Assembly: GCA_002457745.1 (NCBI GenBank)
Contig: NTKV01000009.1
Span: 1 to 32,790 of the forward strand
Direction: 5' to 3'
Length of the DNA stretch: 32,790 nt
From: SAR116 cluster bacterium MED-G06
Lineage (GTDB): Bacteria; Pseudomonadota; Alphaproteobacteria; Puniceispirillales; Puniceispirillaceae
Shown here: piece by piece, positions 10,909 to 13,410 of the stretch
Layout of the letters: the number at the start of each line of letters is the position of its first letter
Numbering within the stretch: the stretch's first letter is position 1
Position numbers and translations under genes: made by a program
Notes under the pieces: generated by a model
Databases searched by the model: none
What the model saw: the letters and a program-made list of their open reading frames with translations, nothing else
What the model was told of the DNA's origin: nothing

Positions 10909-11517
10909 TCACCCGTCGCTGAACTGCATGATGGCACTCCAGACCCGCGTACCCGTCGTGATCCAGCATAGCAATCCGAACACCCATGCCAATGGCACAA
11001 AGACCTGCGGGAACAGGACCACTATGACTAGGAAAATGATGGTCTCCCCGCCCTCGGTCAAGCCGCCGAGATAGAAGAAGCCCTTTTTTCCACGCGCCTC
11101 TGTCGAAATGCCGCGCTTCTGCGCGATGATGGCATAGGCCAGAAAACTTGAACCGGTGCCGACAAAACTGAAGATCAGAAAAGCGGCGGCAAGCGCGTGG
11201 CCCGGGTCGGCGAGCGCAAGGCCGAAGGGCACCGCGCTGTAGAAAATGAAATCCAGCGTGATATCAAGGTAGGCCCCGAGGTCGGTCGACCCGCTGGCCC
11301 GCGCCACCGCGCCGTCAAGGCCATCACACAGCCGGTTCGCGAGGATCAGCAGCGCGGCAGTCACCGGCGCGCCGAGGGCCGCCGCCATCGCCGCCGCGAT
11401 TCCCAGGCCAAAGCCGAACCAGGAGACAGCATTTGGCGACACCCCGATGCGCGCCAGACCACGGCCGACCGGGTCAAGACACCGGTCTATCCATGGCCGG
11501 AGGGCGGCGTCAAACAT
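10909..11517 (-). CDS. CDP-alcohol phosphatidyltransferase family membrane protein
   Basis: CDP-alcohol phosphotransferase motif DGLDGAVARASGSTDLGAYLDITLD, multiple TM segments. Confidence 0.9.
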   Translation of the reverse strand: MFDAALRPWIDRCLDPVGRGLARIGVSPNAVSWFGFGLGIAAAMAAALGAPVTAALLILANRLCDGLDGAVARASGSTDLGAYLDITLDFIFYSAVPFGLALADPGHALAAAFLIFSFVGTGSSFLAYAIIAQKRGISTEARGKKGFFYLGGLTEGGETIIFLVIVVLFPQVFVPLAWVFGLLCWITTGTRVWSAIMQFSDG

Positions 11518-11522
11518 GGTGA

Positions 11523-12209
11523 TTAGCTACGCCGTCTGGCAAGCATCGTTTCGCCGGCAAGAACGGTCTGCCCGGGCGCGACCATGATCGCCGCGTCGGC
11601 TGGCAGAAACAGGTCGGTCATGCCGCCGATCCGCGCCATGCCAAGCGGCGCGCCAGCCGCCAGATATTTCCCCGGACCGAAGCGACAGACAAGGTGGCGC
11701 GCGGTGTTGCTGCCAATCTGTACCAGCAGGACACGGGTACCATCCTCGGCCTCGATGGTGATTTCGCGCCGTTCATTGTCGCGGCGGGCCAGAGCCATAT
11801 CCTCGCTCGACCGGAACAGCCCCGGAATGAGGAAATTATCGACAATCCGTCCACCAAGCGGGCTTCGCTGCAACTGGGCATCGGCAAGGCCTGTGCGGAT
11901 GGTGATGCGATGACCTGCCTCAATTCCGGTGCCGGCTGGCCCCTCAACAGCGCCGCTGACCACTGCCAGCACCTTGCCGTCGGCGGGTGCCAGGATGGCA
12001 GTGTCGTCATCCGGAATCTGCCGTGCAGGAAGGCGCAGGATATAGCGGAGCCAGACCATCAGACCAAGCGCGAAACTGCCAAGCGGCAGGGCGATGAAGG
12101 TCAGGATGATGGTGATCATGCCGGCAAGTGCCAGGACTGGCCAGCCCTCGGCGGCGATCCAGCCTTCCGGCGGGTCGTTGCGACTATGCTGTGAATGCTG
12201 GTCTGTCAT
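11523..12209 (-). CDS. Phosphatidylserine decarboxylase-like protein (catalytic residues apparently degenerate)
   Basis: Short-form PSD architecture: TM segment, LAPADGKVLAV, RSPLGGRIVDN, VLLVQIGSNTARHLVC, DLFLPADAAIMVAPGQTVLAGETMLA. Start set at MTDQHSQ; the ORF extends to 12245. Confidence 0.8.
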   Translation of the reverse strand: MTDQHSQHSRNDPPEGWIAAEGWPVLALAGMITIILTFIALPLGSFALGLMVWLRYILRLPARQIPDDDTAILAPADGKVLAVVSGAVEGPAGTGIEAGHRITIRTGLADAQLQRSPLGGRIVDNFLIPGLFRSSEDMALARRDNERREITIEAEDGTRVLLVQIGSNTARHLVCRFGPGKYLAAGAPLGMARIGGMTDLFLPADAAIMVAPGQTVLAGETMLARRRS

Positions 12210-12228: not shown

Positions 12229-13410
12229 CTATTTCGGAATGGCAAAGATCTGGTTCGGGAAAATCAGGTCGGGATCGTTGATCGCCGCTGCATTGCGACG
12301 GACTATATCGACATATTTGATGCCCTCGCCGTAAGAGCGATAGGCAATCCGCCATAGCGCGTCACCCTGCTGCACGATCACCAGACGGCTGCCGTCCAGC
12401 CCCTGCGACAGGTCCCGCGTCGCCACCGGCAGCTCGTAGGTGGCAACAGTCCTGCCATCGCTGTCAGCCAGCGCGAACCGCATCACCCGCTGCGCCCGGC
12501 TGGCATCCACGCGGCCGACCACCTGCCAGCGACCATCCGCCCCGACATCGGCAACACCAAAGGCCTTGTCCCCTGCCTCGACACGAACCGAAACACCGCC
12601 ACGCGATGCCCCGGATACAGTCAGCCTGCCATCGTCCTGCCAGGACAGTGAGCGCGGCGCGATCGCCGGCCCGGCCACCGGCATCTCCGGATCATCGACT
12701 GTCACCGCTTCGGTTGTGTCACCGGAGGCATCGGCCACAACAACCTGCTGCGCGGTATCCGGCGCGTCATCCGGTGATTGCAGAAGTTCGGGAATTGCGG
12801 TTTCGGTCTGCGGCAGCAGCGCAACAAGGGGCCGTTGGTCATCGCTCTCGCCAACCTTGATGGCGAGTGTCTGAGCGGCGATCTCGGTTTCACCATCCGC
12901 AGTCTTTGCGCCGACGGATACCAGATGCTCACCGGTGCCGAGCGCCTTGTCCGGAACAATGACCCACTCACCGGAGGCATCGGCAGTGGTTGTCCCGAGA
13001 ATGATTTCACCTTCAAAAACTGTCACCTCGGCAAAAGGCGGAGCCTTGCCAGCAAACACAGCATTCCCGTCCGGCTTTACCTGCGCCAGATCGATAATCA
13101 CGAGGGATGTCGACCCGGGCACAGCGGCGTCGGACGTGCCCGCCGCCTCACCGGCATCGGATCCGGCAGAAGCGTCATTGGCCGTGCTGGCCGCGCCGCC
13201 GGCTGTCGCCGGGCCTGCCCCTTCCGGGGCGGCTGTCTCGGCCACCACAACCGCCGGCTGTCCCGTTTCAGCCTGCGGCGCAACGGTCTGTTGCTCGCCA
13301 TCGTCCAGAAGCACGACCGCAAGCGCAACCACCGCAATCGCGGCACCCGCACCAACAAGGATATAGGTCAACAACCTCACGAAAACATACCTTTTCACTG
13401 GCGAATTCAC
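12229..13410 (-). CDS. LysM-domain peptidoglycan-binding membrane-anchored protein
   Basis: N-terminal TM segment, Ala/Thr-rich linker, C-terminal LysM VIVQQGDALWRIAYRSYGEGIKYVDIVRRNAAAINDPDLIFPNQIFAIPK. Confidence 0.88.
   Translation of the reverse strand: MNSPVKRYVFVRLLTYILVGAGAAIAVVALAVVLLDDGEQQTVAPQAETGQPAVVVAETAAPEGAGPATAGGAASTANDASAGSDAGEAAGTSDAAVPGSTSLVIIDLAQVKPDGNAVFAGKAPPFAEVTVFEGEIILGTTTADASGEWVIVPDKALGTGEHLVSVGAKTADGETEIAAQTLAIKVGESDDQRPLVALLPQTETAIPELLQSPDDAPDTAQQVVVADASGDTTEAVTVDDPEMPVAGPAIAPRSLSWQDDGRLTVSGASRGGVSVRVEAGDKAFGVADVGADGRWQVVGRVDASRAQRVMRFALADSDGRTVATYELPVATRDLSQGLDGSRLVIVQQGDALWRIAYRSYGEGIKYVDIVRRNAAAINDPDLIFPNQIFAIPK

Follow-up and report, generated by a model that had tools for sequence, protein, structure and literature searches.

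The window analysed here, a stretch of 32,790 nucleotides from SAR116 cluster bacterium MED-G06, encodes a protein of the phosphatidylserine decarboxylase (PSD) family in which both the Gly-Ser self-cleavage site and the catalytic histidine of the enzyme are absent. The status of this protein as a pseudoenzyme is well supported, and we refer to it as pPSD (pseudo-PSD). The best explanation for the whole, to which we assign a probability of roughly 0.55, is that pPSD is a membrane-anchored PSD pseudoenzyme which comes from an ancestral operon and is retained for non-catalytic work together with the adjacent CDP-alcohol phosphotransferase (PTase). The features on which the analysis is based are as follows.

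10909-11517, (-) strand: PTase, 202 aa, PF01066 match of 40.2 bits; starts 5 bases past the pPSD stop
11523-12209, (-) strand: pPSD, 228 aa, PF02666 fold with an N-terminal membrane helix, without Gly-Ser and catalytic His
11622-11627, (-) strand: Gly195-Gly196 (GGC GGC), in place of the Gly-Ser self-cleavage site
11874-11876, (-) strand: Gln112 (CAG) in DAQLQRSPLGG, in place of the catalytic His
11979-11981, (-) strand: Asp77 (GAC) of the PADG motif in APADGKV, kept
12033-12146, (-) strand: long membrane helix predicted in the AlphaFold2 model, residues 22-59
12229-13410, (-) strand: LysM/Ig-like membrane-anchored protein, PF01476 match of 26.9 bits; immediately upstream of pPSD, same position in relatives

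Active-site residues and predicted structure of pPSD

In PSD, Ser254 becomes the pyruvoyl group and His144 is the main activator (PMC7952604). The Pfam profile PS_Dcarbxylase (PF02666) matches pPSD with 85.7 bits against a cut-off of 22 (E 4.3e-24), over residues 56-223 and profile positions 7-197 of 198. The score is thus above the curated cut-off across the domain, as for a member of this sequence family, and because of the strength of the alignment the active-site columns could be placed without ambiguity. The segment at the self-cleavage site reads R-I-Gly195-Gly196-Met, with single codons of GGC at 11625-11627 for G195, GGC at 11622-11624 for G196 and ATG for M197. The initial annotation had described Gly-Gly at the Gly-Ser site, glutamine for histidine and a retained aspartate, and all of these were confirmed by translation and codon check; the intact Gly-Ser or histidine elsewhere in the protein, which it had named as a possible refutation, was not encountered, since the conserved domain has neither a Gly-Ser nor an HxNRxP at any other place. 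With respect to the enzyme, the Gly-Ser site and the triad His are therefore absent and the triad Asp is present. Scores against the short-form PSD equivalogs of NCBIfam do not reach the respective cut-offs (the best is 131.5 bits, with a cut-off of 252), and neither does the score against TIGR00164, the archaetidylserine decarboxylase profile (94.6 bits against 230). Judged from its sequence, pPSD is a member of the PS_Dcarbxylase family which fails on the catalytic features that define the enzyme.

The AlphaFold2 model of pPSD, built from a 22-row alignment, is fairly confident (mean pLDDT 82.4) and predicts one long N-terminal helix and a beta-rich domain. Significant matches (E < 0.001) in a structural search of the PDB with this model were limited to four chains of PsiD, for which PDB entry 8x4q gave an E of 2.4e-4, a probability of 1.00, a TM-score of 0.46 and 17% identity. 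Sequence searches of the PDB with pPSD or its alignment returned no match.

Loss of the serine across the SAR116 family

The SAR116-cluster family of the window genome is coded f1 in the following, and G and L numbers are codes of genomes and loci. A pPSD paralogue is located at the same place in 52/52 f1 genomes with a readable locus, and all f1 genera with such a locus carry this second PSD paralogue resembling that of the window. The Gly-Ser pair is found in none of the 49 alignable copies, in which the Gly-Ser-Arg columns read AGV (12 copies), GGL (6), YGE (4), GGM (3), GGV (3) and others. Serine does occupy the column in three copies of genus g2, but it is preceded there by R, Q or C and never by Gly. 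The histidine column contains Q in 30 copies, H in 9, K in 5, R in 4 and L in 1; His is kept in G005 and G008 (DAHLQRSP) and in several g10 and g5 copies, and both Gly-Ser and His are missing from 40 of the 49. The triad Asp column is occupied by D (46) or E (3).

Loss of the serine is therefore the feature common to the clade, with glutamine frequent and not universal. The initial annotation had proposed to look for a clade sharing the glycine and glutamine substitutions; a clade sharing the serine loss does exist, while neither G nor Q is strict in it (His in 9/49). Chance and the sequencing error which had been considered at the outset are excluded, because the Gly-Ser pair is present in 0/49 copies from dozens of separate assemblies. 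The pPSD frame is broken only in the drafts G082 and G098, and draft errors are the likely reason because the XDH frame is also split in both; in G098 the LysM frame is broken as well. Identity of pPSD between f1 genera goes down to about 26%.

Gene neighbourhood in the order

Gene order around pPSD is largely kept across f1 as AlaS - ICD - LOG - LysM - pPSD - PTase - XDH - aroE - GcrA - pepN. In every readable f1 locus pPSD lies between the LysM gene and the PTase, though its identity falls below 30%, and the link to a neighbouring CDP-alcohol phosphatidyltransferase which had been drawn from the window is thus real and conserved. The PTase is present order-wide, in 102 of 121 genomes and in 42 of 43 genomes of good quality. 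In the sister families f2, f3 and f4 the LysM and PTase genes are directly adjacent in 19/19 loci with both flanks, and no PSD-like gene is seen between them in these 19 loci, where the profile gives no match even with E allowed to rise to 10.

The PTase scores 81.8 bits against a cut-off of 180 with NF040950, the equivalog for archaetidylinositol/phosphatidylinositol phosphate synthase, and is not clearly a phosphatidylinositol-phosphate synthase. A phosphatidylinositol role was dropped, as inositol-1-phosphate synthase (PF01658) was found in none of 16 genomes. In the CDP-alcohol motif of the window PTase (10909-11517), AR and G are separated by 7 residues, as they are in its f169 homologue; in the genome's own pssA the number is 8.

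The same operon position in other Alphaproteobacteria

Within the class, the PTase occurs in 87 of 385 genomes, and 63 PTase loci outside the order were read. In twelve of the 63, from other families, the genes are arranged as LysM - psd - pssA - PTase and psd is intact, and three further ones show psd - pssA - PTase; in one f55 locus an intact psd stands just ahead of the PTase and no pssA was detected, and in one f78 locus (L305) the psd that directly precedes the PTase is diverged but intact. A Ser/His-less PSD-like protein directly precedes the PTase in four loci, three of f52 (L202, L203, L205) and one of f169 (L275); in the last of these the PSD-like and PTase open frames overlap by about 26 bases. 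No PSD is near the PTase in the other 42 loci. The Ser-less PSD-like examples tested are mostly above the Pfam cut-off. L142, which was first taken as a relative, contains a canonical PSD instead.

In SAR116, pPSD takes the place which psd has in this operon of other alphaproteobacterial families. As it holds the psd position of LysM - psd - pssA - PTase, we infer that pPSD is a descendant of the psd of the ancestral operon. In the tree, the f1 pPSDs form one clade (91/66). The branches are long, which makes finer claims unsafe, and the trees do not place the f1 clade: neither an origin from the family's own canonical psd (p-AU 0.143) nor a single origin of all Ser-less copies tested (p-AU 0.547) is rejected.

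Other PSD-like proteins without the serine were also observed. A Ser/His-less short PSD of the gammaproteobacterium G410 (L143:3745-4389, (+) strand) lies between ilvC and pssA and is, by its residues, apparently another pseudo-PSD adjoining a CDP-alcohol phosphotransferase; a separate, much stronger PF02666 match (207.7 bits) is present elsewhere in that genome. In the 0.6 Mb genomes of f21 (L200:809-2930, L201:803-2990), a PSD-like protein without Gly-Ser stands in tandem with a canonical PSD, then pssA, and these dead copies retain His (DIHVSRMP, DIHANRMP). The complete 3.7 Mb genome G305 (f149) encodes a Ser/His-less PSD-like protein adjoining an ABC-transporter gene (L204:1264-2166), with no PTase detected beside it.

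Canonical PSD and genomes with the dead copy alone

The window genome is a 1.67 Mb draft, 67% complete. It encodes a second, canonical PSD (FMNVFDVHVNRAP ... IIRFGSRVD) with pssA directly after, and a third PF01066 protein on another contig. The search for a canonical psd/pssA pair in the same genome, suggested in the initial annotation, thus located one away from the pPSD locus. GSR and His are kept in 21/21 canonical PSDs of the order, a count which is descriptive and not a test, as these proteins were selected by those motifs.

Most SAR116 genomes contain pPSD plus an active PSD. No intact PSD was found in the pPSD-bearing genera g7 (G017, 95% complete; G025, 95%; G030, 92%) and g11 (G021, 94%), and in G021 and G025 pPSD is the sole PF02666 protein found. 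The only further PF02666 protein found in g7 likewise lacks both Ser and His (FGGK, His to Ala) and is not beside pssA; it was seen at L057, L062, L068, L165 and L166 (FGGK, SLHAP), in genomes where no intact PSD was found. The f52 and f169 genomes contain no other PF02666 protein and no pssA over the cut-off; because this strict cut-off also fails to detect pssA in many named controls, the absence of pssA is less firm than that of PSD. The genomes with the dead copy alone are drafts (81-95% complete), in which the pattern repeats. Retention of pPSD in genomes for which no intact PSD was found means that it is not simply a helper of the canonical PSD.

Several g15 genomes of f2 (96-99% complete) and g13 drafts of f3 have no PF02666 protein at all, and PSD loss is therefore recurrent in the order.

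Selection and residue conservation

Pairwise dN/dS (Nei-Gojobori) of pPSD ranges from 0.10 to 0.32 over 15 non-independent pairs, as compared to 0.06-0.27 for the PTase and 0.16-0.26 for the LysM gene, and to 0.06-0.14 for canonical PSD in its own set of pairs. On these values pPSD is under purifying selection, yet fast-diverging. Residues conserved in at least 94% of pPSD copies are mostly Gly and Pro, together with D77, R147, E149, R171 and T221. Canonical PSD shows the same invariance at D77, R147, R171 and T221, which are therefore probably structural; E149 alone is specific to pPSD. The columns N104, H109, N111, R112, S192 and R193 (numbering of the genome's own canonical PSD) show no conservation among f1 pPSDs, and the columns of the former active site are degenerate, reading differently from genus to genus (GGM, AGV, HAR, RPK, YGE). 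Since the old active-site columns are not conserved and the conserved polar residues are mostly those of canonical PSD, the residue pattern favours a retained fold over a new active site.

Proposed role of pPSD and its alternatives

It seems plausible to hypothesize that an ancestral alphaproteobacterial LysM - psd - pssA - PTase operon gave rise to pPSD through its psd, and that the decarboxylase job in SAR116 is done by the separate canonical psd-pssA pair. The operon-resident protein has lost the Gly-Ser site and usually the His. From the known chemistry of PSD, pPSD is expected to stay one uncleaved chain without pyruvoyl: with the serine gone no pyruvoyl is possible, and hence no Schiff-base decarboxylation. 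The initial view that pPSD is no conventional decarboxylase accordingly holds, as the Gly-Ser route of maturation is closed to it and the serine of this pair is gone in 49/49 f1 copies. The gene is kept by selection, in this reading because the PSD-fold domain on its membrane helix has a non-catalytic job with the adjacent PTase, and pPSD is most likely an accessory subunit of it, which might bind phospholipid head groups or anchor, regulate or stabilise the PTase. A lipid-binding or regulatory role, as suggested in the initial annotation, is plausible.

This reading of pPSD as a non-catalytic PSD-fold partner of the PTase is favoured by f52 and f169, in which a Ser/His-less protein stands directly before the same PTase and neither another PF02666 protein nor a pssA over the cut-off was found. 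Against it, inheritance of the operon could also account for the adjacency, the sister families retain the PTase but have no pPSD, and the five polar residues conserved in at least 94% of copies leave some room for an unrecognised reaction. As a broader and tentative proposal, with odds somewhat short of even, alphaproteobacterial PSD-fold proteins may recurrently have been turned into non-catalytic subunits of CDP-alcohol phosphotransferases, and kept even after phosphatidylethanolamine synthesis by psd/pssA was gone.

The co-occurrence of pPSD and an active PSD in most SAR116 genomes would also suit a prozyme-like partner, a dead paralogue which assembles into a heteromer with the cell's own active PSD and regulates that enzyme. 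In E. coli, PSD forms a dimer of heterodimers (PMC7952604), and AdoMetDC of trypanosomes, another pyruvoyl decarboxylase, provides a precedent for a prozyme (PMC5201418). We consider this unlikely, as pPSD is kept without any intact PSD found in g7, g11, f52 and f169 and was not seen adjoining an active psd in SAR116. A partnership with the upstream LysM protein instead of the PTase, for example as a membrane sensor or anchor in envelope maintenance, is if anything slightly less likely: the LysM gene is always the other neighbour of pPSD in SAR116 and the first gene of the class operon, but no LysM gene was detected within 7 kb in f169, where the PTase is directly adjacent, none was seen in the short f52 loci examined, and what these loci have in common is the PTase next to the dead copy.

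Different chemistry on the PSD fold, which had been raised initially, could make use of the conserved polar set with its pPSD-specific E149; however, the other four residues probably have a structural role, the columns of the former active site are degenerate from genus to genus, and across f1 the old active site shows no conserved nucleophile and no conserved group of residues that looks catalytic. We regard such an enzyme as improbable. Decay into a pseudogene or neutral relic would explain the fast divergence and the broken frames of G082 and G098. It is very improbable in view of the frames intact in other loci, the dN/dS, the invariant residues and the fixed position, and in G098, with LysM and XDH also broken, sequencing error is likely. 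A conventional decarboxylase, or substitutions arising from sequencing errors, deserves hardly any credence: His144 mutants of E. coli PSD still cleave slowly (PMC7952604), but the serine of the pair is gone in every copy, across dozens of assemblies.

Significance and comparison with known systems

Profile searches label these Ser-less proteins phosphatidylserine decarboxylase, so that lipid pathways are mis-predicted for SAR116 and for bacteria with the dead copy alone. If the partner role of pPSD is true, it would be a bacterial phospholipid pseudoenzyme, a regulator in phospholipid synthesis, and would offer a handle on the function of a class-wide CDP-alcohol phosphotransferase. No report of PSD pseudoenzymes was found in the part of the open-access literature covered, which is weak evidence of novelty.

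Short-form bacterial PSD (PF02666; NF003677-NF003685) shares with pPSD the fold, the membrane helix and the PADG, P117, R147, R171 and GET motifs and, in other Alphaproteobacteria, the position in the LysM - psd - pssA - PTase operon. In contrast, pPSD is without Gly-Ser, usually without the His, N or R of HVNRAP, and far below the equivalog cut-offs (131.5 against 252). Archaetidylserine decarboxylase (TIGR00164) belongs to the same superfamily, with pPSD below its cut-off (94.6 against 230), and that family keeps the Gly-Ser site. PsiD, an L-tryptophan decarboxylase of the PSD family (PDB 8x4q) and the sole significant structural match to pPSD, is an active pyruvoyl enzyme. In function, the AdoMetDC prozyme of trypanosomatids (PMC5201418) is the nearest precedent: like pPSD, it is a dead paralogue of a pyruvoyl decarboxylase, retained alongside an active copy. 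However, it belongs to another fold family and has another partner, that of pPSD appearing to be the PTase, and pPSD is kept also where no active PSD was found.
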